Positions 7,126 to 31,503 of a DNA stretch of 34,588 nt are shown in pieces (the stretch's first letter is position 1; every line of letters begins with the position of its first letter). The position numbers and the translations under genes are program-made. Source of the DNA: an uncultured Actinomycetes bacterium (GTDB lineage: Bacteria; Actinomycetota; Coriobacteriia; Coriobacteriales; Atopobiaceae); NCBI GenBank assembly GCA_900318935.1, contig ONMP01000034.1, positions 1-34,588 of the forward strand, in the 5' to 3' direction. Below the pieces are notes generated by a model. It ran no database searches, was not told the origin of the DNA, and saw only the letters and a list, made by a program, of their open reading frames with translations.

Positions 7126-7208
7126 ACCCAATGCGGGAGGCGTGTATACCAACGCCGCTTAGGTGGGGTATCATGGTGTGCAGACACTCGACGGAGAGGA
7201 CGCGGCCT

Positions 7209-10200
7209 ATGGCATTCGTACAACTGCACAACCATACCGATTTCTCGATTCTCGACGGTGCCACGCGCGTCGACGACCTCGTGGGGCGGGCCGTTGAGTT
7301 GGGGATGCCAGCCGTGGCGCTCACCGACCACGGCTACATGTTTGGCGTGCCGAACTTTGACCTTGCCTGCAGGGGATACAACACCGGCCAGGCCGACTTC
7401 AAGCAGTGGTCGCATGACTTGGAGTGCTTCACCAAGGACTGGGACCTCGCGGAGCCCGACCCCGACGCTCCTGACGCAAAGCCGCACGATTGCGTGCACG
7501 CCCAGTGGGAGGGTGACGTGGCCGCTTGGCAGGCGGCTGGTGGTGCGGCAAACAAAGACGAGGCCTTGGCAGCCGTCAAGGCAAACAAGCCCGCCCCCCT
7601 CATCAAGCCCATCTTTGGCTGTGAGGCGTACTTCATCACTGACGACCAGATCGAGCGTGGCACGAAGCAGCGCCGTTACCACATGATCTTGCTTGCCAAG
7701 GACGAGCACGGGTACGTCAACCTCATGAAGATGATGTCAAAGGCCGCCAACGAGATGTACTACTACAAGCCGCGCACCACGCTCGACATGCTGCGGGAGT
7801 ACCACGAGGGCATCATCTGTCAGAGCGCCTGTGTCCAAGGCATCATCCCCCAGCACATCCTCGATGGCAACTTTGCTGAGGCCGAGCGGTGGGCACGTAT
7901 TTTTCAGGACATCTTTGGCGAGGACTTCTACATCGAGATTCAGGATCACGGCCTCACATTCCGCAATGGCTACGACGATCGCAAGCTCTCTGAGCAACTC
8001 GTGCGGCTTGCGAACAAGCTCGGCATCAAAGTGGTCGCCACCAACGACGTACACTACCTCAAGCGCGAGGATGCCCCGGTACAGGATACCCTCTCCTGCA
8101 TCGGCACGAACTCAAAGATCGACCAACCTGATCGCAAGCGTATGGATGGCTCGGAGTTCTACCTCAAGTCCGAGGATGAGATGCGCTCAATCTTTGGTTG
8201 GTGCCCGGAGGCCTGCGACAACACCTTGGAGATAGCGGCCAAGTGCAACTACGAGCTCGATTGGTCATCGATGTTCCTTCCGAAGTTCCCAGACCTGCGC
8301 CCGGGCGAGACGAGCGAGGAACGCTTTCGCGCGGAGTGCGAGGCTGGCCTGGCGATGCGCTATGGCGACGACTGGGACGGCAAGTCGATCAACGGCGTGG
8401 ACATCCGCGAACGCTTCGAGTACGAGTACGACGTCATCTGCACCAAAGGCTTTGCCGACTACTTCCTCATCGTGCAGGAATACGTGCGCTGGGCGAAGCA
8501 GAACGGTATCGGCGTGGGACCCGGACGCGGGTCTGCGGCGGGTGCCATCGTTGCCTATGCCATGGACATCACGACCTTCGACCCGCTAGAGAACGGTCTG
8601 ATGTTTGAGCGATTCCTCTCTGTCGAACGTTCCGAGATGCCCGATATCGACATGGACTTCGACGACGAGCGACGCCTGGAGGTCGTGCAGCATGTGCGCG
8701 AGCTCTATGGCGCCGAGCGAGTCTGCCACGTCATCACCTACTCAACGATTAAGGCAAAGAACGCCATCAACGACGCCGCCCGCGTCCTCGACTTCCCGGT
8801 CTACAAGGCGCAGCGTCTCTCAAAGATGGTCTCTTCCAGTCCCGCCGCCAAGCTCAAGTTCACGCTCCACAAGACCGAGGGCAAGGAGGACCTGTTCAGC
8901 CAGGACTTCGTCGACGCCTACAACAACGACACGGACGATCGGCGCATCATCGACTCGGCGCTCGCCATCGAGGGCCTCACGCGCGGAGAGGGCGTACACG
9001 CGTGCGCCGTCCTGATTGCTCCCACGCCGGTCAACGACCACGTGCCCACCAAGCTCGACACCAAGGGTGGCGTCGAGATCACGCAGTACGAGGGCCATTC
9101 CGTGGCAGACATGGGCCTGCTCAAGATGGACTTCTTGGGCCTGCGGACCCTTACCGTGATCACCAAGGCCTTGCGCAACATTCGGGCAAACAACGCCACG
9201 CCTGAGGCTGCGGCCTCGGCCCCGGAGGCAGTGCGCTCCACGCTCAGGCCGGGGGCCACGAGCGTGGACATCGACGTGGACAAGATCCCTTTCGATGACC
9301 CCAAGCTCTTTGGGCTCATGGCACGCGGCCATACGGCGGGCGTCTTTCAGATTGAGTCGGGTGGCATGACGGCCACCATCAAGGGCATGCGTCCGCGCGA
9401 GTTCAAGCACGTGGTCGCACTCATCGCCCTCTATCGTCCGGGTCCCTTGGGTGCGGGCATGGTCAGCGACTATATCGACCGCATGAACGGGCGCAAGCAG
9501 GTTGCCTTCTACGACGACCGTCTTTCCGACATCCTGGAGGAGACCTATGGCACCATGGTCTACCAGGAACAGGTCATGCAGATTTCGATGAAGATGTGTG
9601 GCTTCTCGGCAGGCGAGTCCGACTCGCGTATCCGCAAGCCCGTGGCAAAGAAAAAGATCAAGCTCCTTACGAGCACGGTCTTTCATTGGGAGGATGGCTC
9701 TGACGAGACGACCTACGACCATTGGATGAACGGCGCGGTCAAGAACGGCTACTCCCGCGAGATTGCTCAGAAGATTTGGGATGACGTTCTCGAGTTCGCC
9801 TCCTACGCATTCAACAAGTCCCACTCAGCTGGCTATGCCATCCTCGTCATGCAGACGGCTTGGCTCAAGGCCTACTATCCGCGCGAGTACATGGCCTCGG
9901 TGCTGACGAGCTACATGGGCAAGACGGACAAGATCGTTCACTACCTCAGCGCGTGCCGTCACGAGGGTATCGACATCCTCCCACCCGACATCAACGAGTC
10001 CGGCAAGGACTTCACCGCCGTGCCAGAGGGCATCCGCTTTGGCTTTGCGGGCATCCGTGGTGTGGGTGAGGGCGTCGGCGAGTCCATCATGGCCGAGCGC
10101 GAGAAGGGCGGACCGTTCAAGAACCTTCACGACTTCGTGGAGCGTGTCGACACGAGCGTGGCGAATCGCCGTGTCGTGGAGGCGCTTATCAAGAGCGGCG

Positions 10201-11120
10201 CGTTCGATTCCACTGGCTACACCCGTCGCCAACTGATGTTCTTTGTGGACAAGCTCAACCCGCAAAACATCCTTGACGCGGCGGCCAAGCGTCAGCGCGA
10301 CCGCGCCTCTGGGCAGGTGTCGCTCTTTGACATGTTTGCCGCCGTGGAGGGTTCGGGCTTCGACCAGGACGTGCCCAAACCGGACGGCGTCGAGTGGGAC
10401 CGCTCCATCAAGCTTGCGATGGAGAAGGAGGTGCTCGGACGCTACGTCTCGGACCATCCCTTGGGGCCTTTCGAGTATGCGCTCGCACAGGCGCGCGACT
10501 ACCAGATTTCCGACCTTGAGGCGAGCGACGAGGTCGTCGATCCACGCACGGGACAGACAAGCTCGGTGCCGCGTGTCGAAGAGGGCAAGACCATCCGCTT
10601 GGCAGGCATGGTGTCGGGCGTCGCGAAGAAGAACACAAAGACTGGCAAGGCCATGGCCATCGTCCAGCTGGAAGACATGGAAGGCGAGATCAGTTGTGTC
10701 GTCTTTCCCAATCTCTACGAGCAGTGTGCCGCGACGCTTGCCGGTGACGTTAACGTCGAGACCGGCGAGAGCGAGGGTGACATCTTTGTAAAGGTCACGG
10801 GCAAGCTCGAGCGCAGCGACCGGGGCAACCAGGTCATCTGCTCGGCGGTGGAGGCCTTGGAACTCTCGGAGGCCACAAACAAACCCAAGGTCATGGAAGT
10901 CGTGATGCCGTCCCATGGCATGAGTCGGGGACGGATGGAACGGCTGGGGCTGGTCTTCTCGCGCTACGAGGGAATGGACATCGTGGAGCTCTGCGTACGG
11001 GCGGACACGGGCGATGCCATGCGCCTCACGCTTCCGACACGCGTGGATGCACGAAACGTGCTTATGCTCGCCGAGGTTCGTGACGTCATCGGACGCGAGG
11101 GCGACGTGGTGCTGATGTAG
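7209..11120 (+). CDS. dnaE: DNA polymerase III alpha subunit, DnaE type
   Basis: This is a full-length 1303-residue replicative polymerase. The start at 7209 is chosen because GGAGAGG lies just upstream and the protein then begins MAFVQLHNHTDFS, the usual beginning of the PHP domain. Nine PHP metal-ligand positions appear conserved (HNH and D16 at the N-terminus, TDHG, GCEAYF, RRYHMILL, CQSACVQ and NDVH), so the PHP domain may be a working proofreading exonuclease as in mycobacterial DnaE1. The polymerase motif GPGRGSAAG is near residue 437. The catalytic pair lies in PDIDMDFD (D481 and D483). The C-terminal part carries the helix-hairpin-helix and OB-fold regions. About 70 extra residues sit inside the PHP domain, between TDHG and GCEAYF. 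The PolC layout with a built-in DEDD exonuclease is absent. Confidence 0.96.
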   Translation: MAFVQLHNHTDFSILDGATRVDDLVGRAVELGMPAVALTDHGYMFGVPNFDLACRGYNTGQADFKQWSHDLECFTKDWDLAEPDPDAPDAKPHDCVHAQWEGDVAAWQAAGGAANKDEALAAVKANKPAPLIKPIFGCEAYFITDDQIERGTKQRRYHMILLAKDEHGYVNLMKMMSKAANEMYYYKPRTTLDMLREYHEGIICQSACVQGIIPQHILDGNFAEAERWARIFQDIFGEDFYIEIQDHGLTFRNGYDDRKLSEQLVRLANKLGIKVVATNDVHYLKREDAPVQDTLSCIGTNSKIDQPDRKRMDGSEFYLKSEDEMRSIFGWCPEACDNTLEIAAKCNYELDWSSMFLPKFPDLRPGETSEERFRAECEAGLAMRYGDDWDGKSINGVDIRERFEYEYDVICTKGFADYFLIVQEYVRWAKQNGIGVGPGRGSAAGAIVAYAMDITTFDPLENGLMFERFLSVERSEMPDIDMDFDDERRLEVVQHVRELYGAERVCHVITYSTIKAKNAINDAARVLDFPVYKAQRLSKMVSSSPAAKLKFTLHKTEGKEDLFSQDFVDAYNNDTDDRRIIDSALAIEGLTRGEGVHACAVLIAPTPVNDHVPTKLDTKGGVEITQYEGHSVADMGLLKMDFLGLRTLTVITKALRNIRANNATPEAAASAPEAVRSTLRPGATSVDIDVDKIPFDDPKLFGLMARGHTAGVFQIESGGMTATIKGMRPREFKHVVALIALYRPGPLGAGMVSDYIDRMNGRKQVAFYDDRLSDILEETYGTMVYQEQVMQISMKMCGFSAGESDSRIRKPVAKKKIKLLTSTVFHWEDGSDETTYDHWMNGAVKNGYSREIAQKIWDDVLEFASYAFNKSHSAGYAILVMQTAWLKAYYPREYMASVLTSYMGKTDKIVHYLSACRHEGIDILPPDINESGKDFTAVPEGIRFGFAGIRGVGEGVGESIMAEREKGGPFKNLHDFVERVDTSVANRRVVEALIKSGAFDSTGYTRRQLMFFVDKLNPQNILDAAAKRQRDRASGQVSLFDMFAAVEGSGFDQDVPKPDGVEWDRSIKLAMEKEVLGRYVSDHPLGPFEYALAQARDYQISDLEASDEVVDPRTGQTSSVPRVEEGKTIRLAGMVSGVAKKNTKTGKAMAIVQLEDMEGEISCVVFPNLYEQCAATLAGDVNVETGESEGDIFVKVTGKLERSDRGNQVICSAVEALELSEATNKPKVMEVVMPSHGMSRGRMERLGLVFSRYEGMDIVELCVRADTGDAMRLTLPTRVDARNVLMLAEVRDVIGREGDVVLM

Positions 11121-11171
11121 GGGTGTGACACTGTCCCGACAGCGATTCACAACCATGGTAAGGAGTCACTC

Positions 11172-13082
11172 ATGAGGATGGCCATAGCACAGATCAACAC
11201 GCAGGCAGGCGACTTCGAGGCTACGTCGAAGCGTGTCGTGGAGCTCTCGCAGCAGGCGGCAAGGGACGGGGTTGACCTCATGCTGCTGCCCATGGCGGCA
11301 TTCACGGGGCCGTGCATTCCCGATCATGCCAGCTCCGAGGGATTTGCGCTTGATCTTGGTACGGTGATGGAGAGGTTGGCTCATAAGCTCGCTTGCGCGT
11401 GTCTCATTCCCGTCGCGATGAGTGAGAGGTTGGGAACTCCCTTCTCGCATGAGGCGTTGCTGATTCGTGATGGCGGCATCACGCCTGTGTGCTTTGCGTC
11501 GTGGCTCACGGGTAGCATGGCCGAGGAAGGTGATTTCCATACGCAAGGTACTTTCGAGTTCGGTGGGCTGCGTTTTGCCGTTACCTATACCTACGACGAT
11601 TTACAGACACTCGAGGACGAGGAAGCTGACGTTGATGTGATTCTCTATGTGCCAGATCAGGGTTTCGCGCTTGACGATTCCTCGAGTGCGTTGGGGGCCT
11701 CTTTGCTGGAGAGCAGGTTTCGTGACGAGGCATGGTCGTTCGACGCCTGGATCGTGGGCGTTGGCTCTTTGGGCGGCTATGACCTGCAGGTGTTTACCGG
11801 TTCGAGTTTCGTTCTGACGCCTAAGGGGGAGCTCGTCGCATGTGCTCCGGCCTTCGAAGAGGCCCTGCTCGTGGCAGATATCGATGACGATGGACGGGAT
11901 GTGCCGCAAGAGTTCTTGGAGCCTGAGATCTACGACCGTTCGCTGCACCTGTGGGAGGCGCTGACACTTGGTCTGCGGGATCAGTTGCACAAGCAGGGAC
12001 AGGGCGAAGTCGCGCTCGTGTTGGACGGACGGCTCAACTCGAGCGTCTTGGCGGCGCTCGCCACTGATTCTCTGGGACCCACTCATGTGCATGCGTTCGT
12101 CGACGAAAGTCAGGACGAGGAGCATAGGAGACTGGCTGAACGGATGGCACATGCCCTGCATATCGACCTACAGGCACCGCTGTGCACTGGTGCGAATGCG
12201 ACTGGAACCAGACCTTCACCCTTCAAAGTCGATAAGGACGTTTGGCACGATTTTGCTCAGGTGCGACTTGCGGCCCTTGCCCGCGAGCTTGATGCGGTGC
12301 CACTCTCTGCCATCGACAAGACCTTCCTCGCCTTGGAGGCAGAGCCTTCCACGTGTAATGCAGCTGCACTGGCACCATTGGGCGACGTGTACCGCAGCGA
12401 CGTCATCGAGCTGGCTCATCTGCGCAATACCATTTCCCCTATCATCGAGGCGGCATCCATTGCCTCGTATGACGTTCCCCTCATAGAGGGCTTAGACGAG
12501 GTGGAAACAACGCCCGAAGGTAAGCTGCGTCGCATTGACGTGGTCTTGGCCACGCACATTGAGTGGGAGCGCTCGCTCACCGACGTTGCCGCTCGTCAGG
12601 GCTGTGAGGAGATCTGCACAAATATCGTGAGGTCACTCGCAAGACGCGAGTTCGCCCGTTTGGCTCTGCCGCCCTGCATTGCCGTGTCGTCACGCACGGT
12701 GCGTGAGGCTCGCGTTCCGTTGGGCGTGGCATGGCATGACCATGTGCGTGAAGAAGAGTCCCGTTTGCCAAACGTTGACCTTCTGAGCGAGCTTGCTGCC
12801 AGTATCGGCCCGGATGCGGAGCTTCCCTCGGAGGGACCTGCGCAAAACGACAATGTCCAAGACCAGCTTTCCGCCCAGGTCGCCTCGATGCTCGAGAGAA
12901 TGCAAGAGGAGCTCGCGGAGGCCATTGACACGACGACCGACAGCGATGCACCTCAGCGGCAGGTAGGGGAGTTGCTGGGCCTCTTGCACGATATCCTGCA
13001 GGAGGGCAGCTTCTCCGGTGGTGTGGGTGGTGACGTGCCCTTCGGACCCCTCACGTGGGGGAGTCCCTTTTCTGAGAACTAG
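11172..13082 (+). CDS. Degenerate NAD+ synthetase-like protein (nitrilase plus NadE folds, both active sites lost)
   Basis: This 636-residue protein follows the two-domain plan of glutamine-dependent NAD+ synthetase. The opening MRMAIAQINTQAGDFEA is typical of the nitrilase-type glutaminase domain. The region from about 275 to 510, including GLRDQL, PLGDVYRSDV and an RREFARLALPP segment, follows the synthetase domain. Key residues are changed. The PEL glutamate is replaced (LPMAAFTG, Met41). The catalytic Cys segment reads VTYTYDDL with no Cys, and the Lys segment reads CFASWL. The SGGxDS ATP loop has become DGRLNSS (about 285-291), and the TGNKSE motif is not recognisable. The frame is intact, so this looks like a maintained pseudoenzyme rather than a pseudogene. 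Its function is unknown. The ribosome binding site AAGGAGT precedes the ATG, and dnaE ends 51 bp upstream. Confidence 0.8.
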   Translation: MRMAIAQINTQAGDFEATSKRVVELSQQAARDGVDLMLLPMAAFTGPCIPDHASSEGFALDLGTVMERLAHKLACACLIPVAMSERLGTPFSHEALLIRDGGITPVCFASWLTGSMAEEGDFHTQGTFEFGGLRFAVTYTYDDLQTLEDEEADVDVILYVPDQGFALDDSSSALGASLLESRFRDEAWSFDAWIVGVGSLGGYDLQVFTGSSFVLTPKGELVACAPAFEEALLVADIDDDGRDVPQEFLEPEIYDRSLHLWEALTLGLRDQLHKQGQGEVALVLDGRLNSSVLAALATDSLGPTHVHAFVDESQDEEHRRLAERMAHALHIDLQAPLCTGANATGTRPSPFKVDKDVWHDFAQVRLAALARELDAVPLSAIDKTFLALEAEPSTCNAAALAPLGDVYRSDVIELAHLRNTISPIIEAASIASYDVPLIEGLDEVETTPEGKLRRIDVVLATHIEWERSLTDVAARQGCEEICTNIVRSLARREFARLALPPCIAVSSRTVREARVPLGVAWHDHVREEESRLPNVDLLSELAASIGPDAELPSEGPAQNDNVQDQLSAQVASMLERMQEELAEAIDTTTDSDAPQRQVGELLGLLHDILQEGSFSGGVGGDVPFGPLTWGSPFSEN

Positions 13083-13184: not shown

Positions 13185-13221
13185 TTTGATTTGCGCACAG
13201 TGAGTGACGATGGGGGTTCGT

Positions 13222-15183
13222 ATGCCAGACAATCAGACCGGCAACATGCCGCCGGAGGGTTATACCGAAGACGAAATGGGCCTGTTTGTGGATCCGGATG
13301 GCACTGGTCCCCACGCGTTTGATTCTCCTGCTCCACCGCTTGAGATCTTTGCCCCTGCGGATTCTGCAGAAGAGGGGCTGGAGGAAGCCGAGATCGGAGG
13401 GATGAATCCTCGTACGCGTCGCCTGCTCTCAATCGCCGGCATCCTGCTTGCCGTCATCATCATCGTTGGGGGAATCGGCGGTCTTGTGCTCTTTCAGTCC
13501 GCCAAGCGCGTGCAGGGCATGGCCGAGAACGTAAGGTTGCAGGCTTCGACGCTCAAAGACTCTTTTTTTCAGGGCAACGAAGAATCGCTTCGGTCTACGG
13601 CGGCCATCATCGATACCGATATTGCCGACATGCAGAAAGAGATATCGTCACCCATCTGGTCCATTGCCGAAGGCCTGCCCATCGTGGGGACTGACGTCTC
13701 CAACGTTAAGACGATTGTGGCATGCGCCGACGACCTCTCGGATCGCGCGCTCATGCCACTCGTTGACGGACTGGGCGGAATTCGCTTTGCTGACCTGATG
13801 CAGGGCGGTCGCATCAACACTGAGATCGTCAAACGCATGCGCGAGGCGGTTGTGTCAGCGGCACCTGTCATCGTGGAGGATGCGGGTACGATGGCGAACC
13901 TTCCCACGGGTTCTGTTGGGCAGGTCAACGATGTGATCGACAAGCTGCGTGATCCCCTCGGAGAGGCGAGCACGTTGCTCGCCGATGCGGACGGCCTCTT
14001 TTCGATGCTCCTACGTATGCTCGGTGACGAGGGGCAGACGCGTAACTACATTCTGCTCGCGCAGACGAACAGCGAGATTCGCTCCGGCGGAGGCTTTCCC
14101 GGCTCGATTGGCGTCCTGAAGATTACAGACGGAAATATCGAGCTCAGCGATTTCTCGACCATTTATGGTCTCAAGGAGGCCGCGGTCGACAAAGGAGTTC
14201 GTGCGGGTGTCTCCGATGAAGAGTATGCGGCGTATTTCGACGCGATAGCGAGCGATGCAGCCGCGCCTACGTTCACGCCAAACTTCAGACGCTCCGGAGA
14301 GATCATCCGTGACTTCTGGACTGGCGCGTACGACGAGCGTGTGGACGGCGTCTTTGGCTTGGATCCCATCTTTGTGCAGCGTATGCTTGGCCTTACGGGC
14401 GGCATCATCGCTGAGGACGGCACCGAGGTCAATGGCGAAAACGCCGCTTTCGAGCTGCTGAGCAACGTGTACTGGCGGTATGGTTACGACGGTGATGATG
14501 CGGGTAACGCAGAGGAGGACGCGTTCTTTACCGATGTAGCGAACCGTGCTGCTGACAAGTTGCTCGAGAGCCTAGGCAACGTGGACTTCGAGCAATTCCT
14601 CGAGACGGTCACGAGGTCGGGTGCTGATCATCGTTTGCAGGTATGGATGGCGGACGGTCAGGAGCAGGCGTTCGTCGAGAGCGTTGGCATTTCGGGAAAG
14701 ATACAAGACGACATCATGAAGCCGGAGCTAGGTGTCTACGCCAACGACAACACTTGGTCAAAGATCTCGTGGTACCTCGATATTCGCACGGAGATGGACG
14801 ATGGCGTTCGCAATGAGGATGGCACGACCACGTATCACGTCACGGCGCACTTCGTCAACAACATCTCCGAGGATGAGGCATGGTCGGCGCCAATTTACGT
14901 GTATGGCTCCAACCCGCTCAAGCAGAATCGTGGTGACAGCGTGGACACCATTTACATCATGGCCCCCTTGGGAGCGACAATCGGAGATTTCGAGATACAT
15001 CCGACCCATGAGGGGGAGGGATTGGAGCCGGTCGCGCATGTGCCTGTGTATGAACGTGACATGTGGCGCGCGCAGATACTCATCGCCGCGCAGGGTGACA
15101 GCACCTGCACGTTCACGCTCACCATGCCACCCGAAGTGACCGAGCGCCCGACGGTGCGAACCTCGCCGCTCTGCCACGAATGA
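13222..15183 (+). CDS. Membrane-anchored DUF4012 family protein
   Basis: The product is about 653 residues. In-frame starts also exist at 13204 (GTG) and 13210 (ATG). The ATG at 13222 is preferred because GGGGGTT lies 5 bp upstream. The N-terminus is acidic and Pro-rich, followed by one hydrophobic helix at about residues 69-92, so most of the protein should lie outside the cell. The segment YILLAQTNSEIRSGGGFPGS is the hallmark of DUF4012, a family found in actinobacterial and other Gram-positive envelopes. Its biochemical role is not established. Some members lie near polysaccharide genes, but no such genes are seen here. The gene is flanked by gaps on both sides and is probably transcribed on its own. 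It ends about 28 bp before the ruvC promoter. Confidence 0.85.
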   Translation: MPDNQTGNMPPEGYTEDEMGLFVDPDGTGPHAFDSPAPPLEIFAPADSAEEGLEEAEIGGMNPRTRRLLSIAGILLAVIIIVGGIGGLVLFQSAKRVQGMAENVRLQASTLKDSFFQGNEESLRSTAAIIDTDIADMQKEISSPIWSIAEGLPIVGTDVSNVKTIVACADDLSDRALMPLVDGLGGIRFADLMQGGRINTEIVKRMREAVVSAAPVIVEDAGTMANLPTGSVGQVNDVIDKLRDPLGEASTLLADADGLFSMLLRMLGDEGQTRNYILLAQTNSEIRSGGGFPGSIGVLKITDGNIELSDFSTIYGLKEAAVDKGVRAGVSDEEYAAYFDAIASDAAAPTFTPNFRRSGEIIRDFWTGAYDERVDGVFGLDPIFVQRMLGLTGGIIAEDGTEVNGENAAFELLSNVYWRYGYDGDDAGNAEEDAFFTDVANRAADKLLESLGNVDFEQFLETVTRSGADHRLQVWMADGQEQAFVESVGISGKIQDDIMKPELGVYANDNTWSKISWYLDIRTEMDDGVRNEDGTTTYHVTAHFVNNISEDEAWSAPIYVYGSNPLKQNRGDSVDTIYIMAPLGATIGDFEIHPTHEGEGLEPVAHVPVYERDMWRAQILIAAQGDSTCTFTLTMPPEVTERPTVRTSPLCHE

Positions 15184-15210
15184 CGTCTCGCCTTTTTCCC
15201 AGCCGTGTGC

Positions 15211-15230
15211 TATCCTAGAACGCACGTTCT
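15211..15230 (+). promoter_or_regulatory. LexA (SOS) box overlapping the ruvCAB promoter
   Basis: AGAACGCACGTTCT at 15217-15230 is a perfect palindrome of the form GAAC-N4-GTTC, the Gram-positive/actinobacterial LexA operator core. A -10-like TATCCT (15211-15216) directly abuts it, so bound LexA would block transcription. It lies 23 bp upstream of ruvC. ruv genes are classical SOS genes in many bacteria. Motif and position are seen directly; LexA binding is inferred. Confidence 0.8.
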
Positions 15231-15252
15231 TTTTTGTGCTACGGGAGGCGGC

Positions 15253-15906
15253 ATGGTCATATTGGGCATCGATCCAGGGCTTGCGCATACGGGTTGGGGC
15301 ATCGTGGAGACGCGGGGTTCGTTGTGTCGTGCGCGTGCTTATGGTTGCGTGACCACGACGGCCTCCCAACCCCTTGCCGAGCGTCTCGGTGCGATTTTTT
15401 CCCAGCTCAGTGAAGTCATCGACCGATTTGGTCCCACGCAACTCGCCATCGAGAAGGTGTTCTTTGGCGAGAACGTCCGATCGGCCATGGCGACGGCTCA
15501 AGCACGAGGGGTCGCCATCGTGGCGGGTGCCCAGGCGGGACTCGAGGTCGGCGAATACACGCCCATGCAGATCAAGCAGGCCATCGTCGGGACGGGTTCG
15601 GCTGACAAGCGTCAGGTGATATACATGGTGCGCAACGTTCTTGCCCTCGATCATGACCCCCGGCCCGACCACTGCGCAGATGCCCTCGCCTGTGCCGTTT
15701 ACCACGCGAATCTCGTGCGGACGCGTGCGATTACGCGAGACCATGCGTCAGCACAGATGCTCGACCAGGAGCTGGCCCAGGATGCTGCCGATCGTGCCGC
15801 AGCCCGCGAGGTCACGGCGGCTGCGACGGCGGCACATCGAGGCACATCCCCCCACGGACAGAACCCGGCGACACGCCTAAGGCAGAGCAGGAGGTCCACC
15901 GCATGA
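15253..15906 (+). CDS. ruvC: Holliday junction endodeoxyribonuclease RuvC
   Basis: RuvC cuts Holliday junctions during recombinational repair. The ATG at 15253 is chosen because GGGAGG lies just upstream and the product then begins MVILGIDPGLAHTGWG, the normal RuvC N-terminus with the first catalytic Asp. Other visible motifs are LAIEKVFFGENVRSAMATAQ with the conserved Glu, and PDHCADALACAVYHA with the C-terminal acidic residues. The usual core of about 170 residues is followed by an Ala/Arg-rich tail of about 45 residues that may be disordered. The stop codon overlaps the ruvA start (ATGA), so the two are coupled. An SOS box lies immediately upstream. Confidence 0.95.
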   Translation: MVILGIDPGLAHTGWGIVETRGSLCRARAYGCVTTTASQPLAERLGAIFSQLSEVIDRFGPTQLAIEKVFFGENVRSAMATAQARGVAIVAGAQAGLEVGEYTPMQIKQAIVGTGSADKRQVIYMVRNVLALDHDPRPDHCADALACAVYHANLVRTRAITRDHASAQMLDQELAQDAADRAAAREVTAAATAAHRGTSPHGQNPATRLRQSRRSTA

Positions 15907-16529
15907 TCGTTTCGTTGACCGGAAGGCTTGTCGAGCTTTCGCCAGGTATCGCGGTTCTCGATGTCAGCGGTGTCGGTTATCTGATGGGCATCTCTGCCAC
16001 GACTGCCTCCTCATTGCCCTCCGTCGGTAGTCCTGGCGTGACGTTGCTTACGCGACTTGTGGTGCGAGAGGGGGCCATCGATTTGTACGGATTTGCCTCT
16101 GGGGAGGAACGCTCTCTCTTTGACCGCCTCACGCATATATCGGGTGTTGGCCCCAAGCTGGCCTTGTCGGTGCTCTCCACGTTCTCGCCGCAGGCGCTAG
16201 CCGGTGTGGTGGCCGACCAGAGCGTCACTCGCATGGCGAAGGTGCCTGGCGTGGGGAAAAAGACCGCGTCGCGTTTGCTCATCGAGCTCGCGGACGTGTT
16301 TGCCAAGGACGTGGTGCTGAGCAAGCTCATCGCCGCCCCGTCATCGGCTGAGGTGGAGGACACGGGTAATGAGGGGTCCGTTGATGCCGATGCGTATGAG
16401 GCACTACTCTCCATGGGATTCACGCAGAAGGAGGCGCAGCTTGCCCTTGAGGGCCACAGGGGGGCTGGGGCGCTCGGCACCGAGGCAGCGTTGGGATACG
16501 CACTCAGGCGTATAGGCGGTAGGGGGTAG
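15903..16529 (+). CDS. ruvA: Holliday junction branch migration protein RuvA
   Basis: RuvA binds four-way junctions as a tetramer and recruits the RuvB motor. The 208-residue protein has the N-terminal OB-fold domain (MIVSLTGRLVEL, DVSGVGYLMGIS). Two helix-hairpin-helix motifs follow (ISGVGPKLALSVLS and VPGVGKKTASRLLIEL). After an acidic linker there is a C-terminal UBA-like domain III (EALLSMGFTQKEAQLAL) that contacts RuvB. Length and domain order are normal. It overlaps ruvC by four bases and ends three bases before ruvB, so the three genes form one operon. Confidence 0.96.
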   Translation: MIVSLTGRLVELSPGIAVLDVSGVGYLMGISATTASSLPSVGSPGVTLLTRLVVREGAIDLYGFASGEERSLFDRLTHISGVGPKLALSVLSTFSPQALAGVVADQSVTRMAKVPGVGKKTASRLLIELADVFAKDVVLSKLIAAPSSAEVEDTGNEGSVDADAYEALLSMGFTQKEAQLALEGHRGAGALGTEAALGYALRRIGGRG

Positions 16530-16532
16530 GCC

Positions 16533-17609
16533 ATGTGGGAAGCGGATGCAGGGGATTTGTTTGCAGCTGCGGCGACGAATGCCTCGGGAGGGCCAGCGCG
16601 GGCTCGGCAGCGGGCTGTGACAGGCGAGCTTACGGGCGAGGATTTGGAGGTGGATCGTAGCCTCCGGCCTCAGACGCTTGATGACTATCTGGGGCAGGAG
16701 CGGGTGTGTGCGAACCTCCGCGTGCTCATACAGGCTGCTCGCGGACGTAAGGAGTCACTTGACCACGTGATATTCTCGGGGCCTCCAGGTTTGGGCAAGA
16801 CGACCCTTGCGGGTATCGTCGCGAACGAGATGGGGGCGCACATGCGGGCGACCTCGGGTCCGGCCATCGAGCGCACGGGTGACCTTGCAGCCATCCTTAC
16901 CAACCTCGAGGAGGGTGACGTGCTCTTTGTGGACGAGATCCACAGGCTCAACCATCAGGTCGAGGAAGTGCTCTATCCCGCCATGGAGGACTTCTATCTC
17001 GATATCGTTATCGGCAAGGGACCGGCAGCGCGCTCCATCCGCCTCGATGTGCCGCGCTTCACGCTCGTGGGGGCGACGACGCGTACAGGCTTGCTCACTG
17101 GTCCCCTGCGTGACCGATTCGGCATATCGTATCGCCTCGACTACTACTCGGTGGATGAGCTAGCGCGCATCGTGATGCGCTCGGCACGCATCTTGGGAGT
17201 CGAGCTCGACGAGGAAGCCTCTGCAGAGATAGCCTCGCGCAGCAGAGGTACTCCTCGCCTGGCAAATCGCCTGCTCAAGCGTGTGCGTGACTACGCACAG
17301 GTCCGTGCTGGAGGTAAGGTCACGTGGGAGGTCGCCGCCGAGGCCTTGTCATTCTTTGAGATAGACGAGATTGGTCTCGACTGGATGGACGTAAAGATAC
17401 TGACGGCACTTACACAGACGTTCAGGGGCCGTCCTGTGGGGCTGACGACGATTGCGAGTGCCGTGGCCGAGGACCCCTCGACCCTGGAGGACGTGTATGA
17501 GCCCTACTTGCTGCAGCGCGGACTCATGGTACGAACGCCCCAGGGCCGCCAGGCAACTCTTGCGGCCTTTGAGCATCTCGGCGTCACTCCGCCGTCGACT
17601 TCTGGGTAG
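16533..17609 (+). CDS. ruvB: Holliday junction branch migration ATPase RuvB
   Basis: RuvB is the hexameric AAA+ motor that drives branch migration with RuvA. The 358-residue product shows [11 protein letters not shown], Walker [11 protein letters not shown], Walker [10 protein letters not shown] and the sensor motif [11 protein letters not shown]. The arginine-finger region [12 protein letters not shown] follows. The C-terminal winged helix contains the conserved [11 protein letters not shown] segment. The first 35 residues are an extra Ala-rich extension common in Gram-positive members. It is the last gene of ruvCAB. Only six bases separate its stop from the stop of the convergent DUF389 gene, and no terminator is visible between them. 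Confidence 0.97.
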
Positions 17610-30519: not shown

Positions 30520-31503
30520 ATGGACTTCACCTCAAATACCCGCCCCGATGATATGGCCCGCATCAATACGCCCGAGCTCGCTCAGGCCTTCATCGACGAG
30601 GCCGTGGCGGCCATCCGCGCGCAGGTGGGCGACGGCAAGGTGTTGCTCGCGCTGTCTGGCGGCGTCGACTCAAGTGTATGTGCGGCTTTGCTCATCAAGG
30701 CCATCGGCAAACAGCTCGTGTGTGTGCACGTCAACCACGGCCTCATGCGCAAGGGCGAGTCCGAGCAGGTCATCGACGTGTTCCAGAACCAGATGGATGC
30801 GAATCTCGTCTTCATCGATGCGACCGATCGCTTCCTGGACCTGCTCGCGGGCGTCGTAGACCCCGAGGCAAAGCGTCACATCATTGGCGAGGAATTCATC
30901 AAGGTGTTCGCCGAGGAGGCAGCCAAGCTCGAGGGCATCAAGTTCCTCGGCCAGGGCACGATCTACCCGGACATCCTTGAGTCCGAGGCCGGTGTCAAGG
31001 CGCACCACAATGTGGGCGGACTGCCTGAGGACCTTGACTTCGAGCTCGTCGAGCCCGTCAAGCTGCTCTTCAAGGACGAGGTGCGCGTGGTGGGCGACGC
31101 GCTCGGGCTTCCGCATGGCATGGTGTATCGCCAGCCGTTCCCCGGCCCCGGCTTGGGCGTGCGCTGCACTGGTGCCATCACGCGCGACCGCCTCGAGGCG
31201 CTGCGCGAAGCCGACGCCATCGTGCGCGAGGAGATCGACGCCGCCGGACTGGACATCTGGCAGTACTTCTGCGTGGTGCCCGACTATCGCGCCACAGGCG
31301 TGCGTGACGGCAAGCGTGCCTTCGAGTGGCCCTGCATCATTCGCTGCATCAACACCGTGGACGTCATGACCGCCGAGGTGCCCGAGCTCGACTGGGCCCT
31401 GCTCAAGAAGATGACCGACCGCATCCTCTCTGAGGTTCCCGGCATCTGCCGCGTGTGCTACGAGCTCAGCCCGAAGCCCATCGCCACCGTCGAGTGGGAA
31501 TAG
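30520..31503 (+). CDS. guaA: GMP synthase, ATP pyrophosphatase (synthetase) part only
   Basis: GMP synthase makes GMP from XMP, ATP and an amine donor. This 327-residue protein contains the ATP-PPase loop ALSGGVDSS (residues 46-52) and VNHGLMRKGE. The XMP-binding dimerisation domain follows (QPFPGPGLGVRCTGAITRDR, and the usual C-terminal motif KPIATVEWE). Most bacterial GuaA proteins are about 515 residues, with an N-terminal glutamine amidotransferase domain. That domain is absent here, and upstream sequence does not encode it. The protein would therefore need a separate amidotransferase subunit, as in many archaea, or free ammonia. The start follows AAAGGAG at good spacing. The intact frame and ends argue against recent truncation. 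Confidence 0.9.
   Translation: MDFTSNTRPDDMARINTPELAQAFIDEAVAAIRAQVGDGKVLLALSGGVDSSVCAALLIKAIGKQLVCVHVNHGLMRKGESEQVIDVFQNQMDANLVFIDATDRFLDLLAGVVDPEAKRHIIGEEFIKVFAEEAAKLEGIKFLGQGTIYPDILESEAGVKAHHNVGGLPEDLDFELVEPVKLLFKDEVRVVGDALGLPHGMVYRQPFPGPGLGVRCTGAITRDRLEALREADAIVREEIDAAGLDIWQYFCVVPDYRATGVRDGKRAFEWPCIIRCINTVDVMTAEVPELDWALLKKMTDRILSEVPGICRVCYELSPKPIATVEWE

Follow-up and report, generated by a model that had tools for sequence, protein, structure and literature searches.

The gene at positions 11172-13082 of the window (the whole stretch of 34,588 nucleotides analysed here) encodes a homolog of the two-domain, glutamine-dependent NAD+ synthetase NadE that has lost both active sites, evolves under purifying selection, has half-dead intermediates among its relatives, and ends in an invariant C-terminal peptide. 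We refer to it as pseudo-NadE, and consider it to be, with a probability of about 0.6, a maintained double pseudoenzyme that serves as a non-catalytic scaffold or adaptor acting through its tail. This reading is preferred because the C-terminal peptide, carried on a flexible tether, is the strongest functional signal that remains. Neither this peptide nor the half-dead intermediates were part of the initial annotation of this DNA.

A two-domain NadE fold with both active sites erased

The gene and the positions on which the argument rests are the following:

11172-13082, + strand: pseudo-NadE gene, 636 aa, ATG start and TAG stop; in the window's family, 134 of 140 genomes have a homolog
11160-11165, + strand: AAGGAG, Shine-Dalgarno-like, six bases ahead of the ATG of pseudo-NadE; read directly
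11172-11906, + strand: pseudo-glutaminase (nitrilase-fold) domain, residues 1-245; Pfam CN_hydrolase, model and PDB match
11934-12746, + strand: pseudo-synthetase (PP-loop ATPase fold) domain, residues 255-525; Pfam NAD_synthase, model and PDB match
11292-11294, + strand: Met41 at the catalytic Glu position; E in 0/102 orthologs and 20/20 outgroup enzymes
11496-11498, + strand: Ala109 at the catalytic Lys position; K in 0/102 orthologs and 20/20 outgroup enzymes
11589-11591, + strand: Thr140 at the catalytic Cys position; C in 0/102 orthologs and 20/20 outgroup enzymes
12024-12044, + strand: DGRLNSS replacing the SGGxDS ATP loop; SGGxDS in 0/102 orthologs
12318-12320, + strand: Lys383, kept from the former GNKSE motif; K in 102/102 orthologs
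12384-12386, + strand: Asp405 of GDVYRS; D in 102/102 orthologs

The frame is uninterrupted over its 636 codons, and the two-domain NadE plan that the initial annotation had seen in it reflects real homology, as judged by Pfam, NCBIfam, and fold matching. In Pfam, the CN_hydrolase (2.1e-11) and NAD_synthase (4.5e-7) models both scored above their gathering cut-offs, with the nitrilase-like domain preceding the NAD synthase domain. The NCBIfam equivalog model for NAD+ synthase (NF010588) matched at 3.6e-35 with 121.4 bits, and its cut-off of 479 bits was not reached. An AlphaFold model built with 91 orthologs as input (mean pLDDT 88.8, pTM 0.85) matched the two-domain NAD synthetase 3n05 across both domains (VIA Z 31.0, rmsd 4.0 over 483 residues, model range 1-525), and so did a model (pLDDT 90.0) of an ortholog from f3, the other family that carries such proteins (Z 32.2, rmsd 2.6, 480 residues). 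The two-domain fold is thus predicted to be kept in both f3 and the window's family, f1. Pseudo-NadE shares its domains, domain order, and fold with the short-type glutamine-dependent enzymes (PDB 3n05, 5kha, and 4f4h), to which it is related in sequence. Unlike these, it has lost the whole glutaminase triad as well as the loops for ATP and substrate, and it has an additional tail of about 110 residues ending in FSxN.

In NadE of M. tuberculosis, the glutaminase residues are Cys176, Glu52, and Lys121 (PMC6946656). We compared the corresponding positions in 102 orthologs (82 from f1 and 20 from f3) with those in 20 outgroup enzymes of the class. As the list above shows, none of the orthologs has the catalytic Glu, Lys, or Cys, nor the SGGxDS loop, whose aligned position in the window protein reads 285-DGRLNS-290; the losses claimed in the initial annotation hold in all of these orthologs. 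No Glu, Lys, or Cys substitute at a shifted position was conserved across the 102 orthologs, a Cys one or two positions away being only sporadic. The same annotation held that the TGNKSE motif was gone, which was partly wrong: the segment reads AIDKTF and keeps the invariant Lys383, while the rest of the motif has changed. The alignment also showed loss or deletion of further segments in the pseudoenzymes: the nucleotide loops MPSRYSS, NLQAR, YGDMVGG, and PPSAEL...DQDSLPPY and, in the glutaminase, the YRE loop. Of the 82 window-family sequences, 80 have a deletion that removes the R and Y of MPSRY. The double loss of active sites characterises the whole family and is not peculiar to a single gene. 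Judged from these alignments, pseudo-NadE is all but certain not to make NAD by the known mechanism; a different catalytic activity may be present.

Such an activity could be built around Lys383, Asp405, and Thr384, the last of which is kept in 101 of 102 orthologs; together they could form a new active site. A review cautions that catalytic residues may have migrated in proteins classed as pseudoenzymes (PMC10211241). Against this, the folded part's other invariant columns hold Gly and Ser of the nitrilase-fold domain, the glutaminase domain shows no new invariant polar residue set, and a very diverged homolog in genome G017 retains the GD but not the DKT. We therefore regard an enzyme with a new activity as distinctly unlikely.

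The lost loops also bear on the suggestion, made in the initial annotation, that the protein senses NAD or glutamine. A sensor would use the ancestral pockets to bind NAD, deamido-NAD, ATP, or glutamine and would signal through the tail, and the retention of the fold with both domains and of one nucleotide-site Lys fits this idea. However, as the loops that would hold these ligands (SGGxDS, MPSRYSS, NLQAR, YGDMVGG, the P2-loop motifs, and YRE) are gone, sensing through the old pockets is highly unlikely.

Maintenance of the gene and stepwise decay among relatives

The pseudo-NadE frame is open in nearly all of the 134 f1 genomes that carry a homolog. In 20 close ortholog pairs, whole-gene dN/dS ranged from 0.046 to 0.348 and was low in both domains, these NG86 values being approximate and the pairs not all independent. 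A reading as a pseudogene in decay, open here by chance, could appeal to the lost catalytic residues and to the few relatives that lack the gene or carry frame breaks. The largely open frames and the purifying selection (0.05-0.35), together with an invariant C-terminal peptide that lies beyond a long, variable linker, make it extremely unlikely. Among these few relatives, a contig of G009 carries RuvC with no pseudo-NadE ORF upstream of it. In G026 (one contig, 99% complete), neither pseudo-NadE nor superoxide reductase nor RuvC was detected, as if the entire block had been deleted. Because pseudo-NadE is absent from G026 and from beside RuvC in G009, it is not strictly essential.

There is also a separate, canonical NadE. 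The window's own genome encodes a long NadE of 674 aa with an intact SGGxDS on another contig (C219), and 134 of 140 f1 genomes have a TIGR00552 match that exceeds the cut-off; long NadE was also found throughout the sampled f3 genomes. The f1 genomes without it are mostly incomplete assemblies. Contamination during binning is disfavoured as the source of the canonical gene, which is 81-86% identical to copies in four genomes of the same genus. The long type (that of M. tuberculosis, about 650-680 aa) has its overall domain plan in common with pseudo-NadE, but branches far from it in the NadE tree. It is likely that long NadE, and not pseudo-NadE, is the working enzyme of the window's genome. 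The universal residue loss, the low dN/dS, the canonical NadE encoded elsewhere, and synteny-supported orthology together bear out the earlier proposal of a maintained pseudoenzyme.

Dead paralogs of oligomeric enzymes often tune an active partner through mixed oligomers, and pseudo-NadE could in this way be a regulatory subunit of long NadE that adjusts NAD synthesis. Synthetase-dead copies are indeed seen only in two families that also have long NadE. This co-occurrence is equally explained by a relaxed need for the old enzyme after its replacement, however, and the distance between the two on the tree makes shared interfaces unlikely. In addition, the two genes lie on different contigs in the window's genome, and in G071, an f1 genome that is 98% complete, no long NadE was detected and pseudo-NadE is split into two frames. 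We consider this explanation rather unlikely, although a regulatory role of some kind may apply to pseudo-NadE.

Relatives of the gene show how the two sites may have been lost one after the other. Outside the order, homologs have about 535 aa and both sites intact. A half-dead form, in which the glutaminase Glu is replaced and the triad is incomplete while SGGxDS and NKSE are intact, was found in 30 genomes of the order, one of them from family f2 and the others from f4, f5, f6, f26, f28, and f29; most f2 genomes have a single-domain NadE of about 280-330 aa. Both sites are dead in f1 and f3, the families that also carry long NadE. The codes f1, f2, and f3 may correspond to Atopobiaceae, Eggerthellaceae, and Coriobacteriaceae, respectively. 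The half-dead proteins (L151-L154, L158, and L201-L228) share the dead glutaminase domain with pseudo-NadE and, in f5 and f6, a C-terminal end of the type aromatic/aliphatic-x-x-Asn that resembles its own. They differ in their intact synthetase motifs, with which they should make NAD from free ammonia.

In a tree of the synthetase domain, the half-dead and single-domain f2 forms made up one clade (96/98), and the f1 and f3 pseudo forms another (100/99.9), within the order's group (89/98). The branch to the pseudo forms is long, at 1.47 changes per site, and its exact placement is unsure. Long-type NadE was not seen in the f4, f5, and f6 genomes with a match in the class sample (G354, G316, G353, and G332), and the sampled genomes with half-dead or single-domain forms mostly lack it; synthetase-dead forms were thus seen only alongside long NadE. 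A scenario put forward by De Ingeniis and colleagues has the mosaic of one- and two-domain NadE arising with no further fission event (PMC3376133). The clade that joins the half-dead and the single-domain f2 forms suggests, by contrast, that the latter arose through loss of the dead glutaminase, and hence that a domain was lost in at least one lineage.

An invariant C-terminal peptide behind a variable linker

Beyond the synthetase domain, the protein continues with two further features:

12747-13079, + strand: C-terminal extension, residues 526-636, with a variable linker, predicted helices at 560-585 and 592-610, and an unstructured end, as judged from model confidence; absent from class outgroups
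13068-13079, + strand: FSEN, the invariant C-terminal Phe-Ser-x-Asn; 102/102 orthologs, codons vary

The exact C-terminus is F-S-x-N in every one of the orthologs, a common end that is newly described here. It follows a tail of 69-132 residues past the position of Trp521 that is rich in Gly, Glu, Ala, Asp, and Arg. A 91-row alignment has only eight invariant columns, of which Phe633, Ser634, and Asn636 make up three, while the remainder of the tail is among the fastest-evolving parts of the protein. As F, S, and N are encoded by varying codons and the genes end in three different stop codons, selection acts on the protein, and a DNA-level constraint at the 3' end was rejected. The tail had a pLDDT below 50 in both models, neither of which predicted docking of the tail within the monomer, a result that may reflect model limits. 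A flexible tether with a short peptide at its C-terminal end is an arrangement typical of docking motifs.

The peptide does not appear to be a general C-terminal signal. A search of four genomes for the pattern FSxN-stop, which required an extra pyrimidine-rich codon before F and was not exhaustive, returned the pseudo-NadEs as the only domain-size ORFs ending in FSxN; the other hits were one membrane-like ORF of 97 aa (FWLN) and short spurious ORFs. Among open-licence papers, nothing relevant was found on FSEN or FSxN motifs.

Similar ends are present in some half-dead forms. That of G316 (f5) ends in FSKN, and those of f6 end in F/I/W/Y-x-x-N; the f6 forms (L207-L210, L212, L215-L222, and L225-L228) have a conserved short end of approximately YL..I/L....P.G..F/I-L-A/E-N. 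No such tail was found in the f4, f26, f28, and f29 forms or in the single f2 form. Since the f5 and f6 proteins have an intact synthetase, the tail probably arose before that site was lost. The diverged homolog of G017 (L149:3163-6399) has 1078 aa, carries a long acidic insertion, and ends in NPFSIN; it sits at a dnaE-ruvCAB locus and shows 24% identity over part of its length only.

Genomic context and proposed role

In the window, pseudo-NadE lies among genes for replication and repair:

7131-11120, + strand: dnaE, 51 bases upstream of pseudo-NadE; Pfam DNA polymerase III alpha domains
13204-15183, + strand: DUF4012 protein gene, between pseudo-NadE and ruvC; PF13196, E 1.8e-31
15205-17609, + strand: ruvC, ruvA, and ruvB, conserved downstream neighbours; comparison of orthologous loci

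The usual position of pseudo-NadE in f1 and f3 is between a gene for desulfoferrodoxin (superoxide reductase) and ruvC-ruvA-ruvB; much of f1 also has dnaE farther upstream. A desulfoferrodoxin-like ORF lies upstream in 83 of 102 loci, and likewise upstream of the half-dead gene of G316; the window's genome has its best superoxide reductase match on a different contig. The DUF4012 gene directly follows pseudo-NadE in 6 loci of the window's genus, and a relative of it lies convergently beside the G316 gene. Part of the family has RuvC proteins (15205-15906 in the window; relatives in L018, L073, and L149) with a basic C-terminal end resembling RQSRRSTA/RQSRRNS, and such an end is absent from the f3 RuvC proteins shown. 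Farther downstream, at 30520-31503 (+ strand), a 327-aa GMP synthase-like ORF contains ATPase and GMP_synt_C parts and no glutaminase domain; elsewhere in the genome, frames of 520 and 532 aa match NAD_synthase and may include a complete GuaA.

For the scaffold or adaptor that we favour, the ancestor would have been the order's own two-domain NadE, whose glutaminase site died before the synthetase site, in the order's ancestor or close to it. In f1 and one related family, the distant long NadE would then have taken over NAD synthesis, and the synthetase site would have eroded after this takeover, an order of events that we infer. The two-domain body would have been retained to work without catalysis, its flexible linker of variable length presenting the invariant Phe-Ser-x-Asn-COOH to a partner protein. 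Candidate partners are RuvC and superoxide reductase, as products of conserved neighbours, as well as DnaE and long NadE. More tentatively, FSxN-COOH could be a C-terminal docking peptide that has so far escaped recognition and has a receptor of its own in the Coriobacteriales, the dead NAD synthetase being its adaptor carrier and possibly linking redox or nitrogen state to the adjoining replication and repair genes.

Our search of the open-licence literature for an earlier report of a NAD synthetase pseudoenzyme found nothing relevant. In its conserved fold, lost catalytic motifs, and maintained selection, pseudo-NadE resembles pseudoenzymes in general (reviewed in PMC10211241); it differs in having two different dead sites on one chain, together with a living series of intermediates. 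While pseudoenzymes are common, a doubly dead chain across two families with half-dead intermediates is a rare record of enzyme repurposing. Annotation by domain matches would label pseudo-NadE a NAD synthase and mislead metabolic models of gut bacteria. The invariant FSxN provides a direct handle on the new function and can be used as bait, in a bacterial order of the gut and rumen that retains the build of a NAD-finishing enzyme with both of its chemical sites erased.
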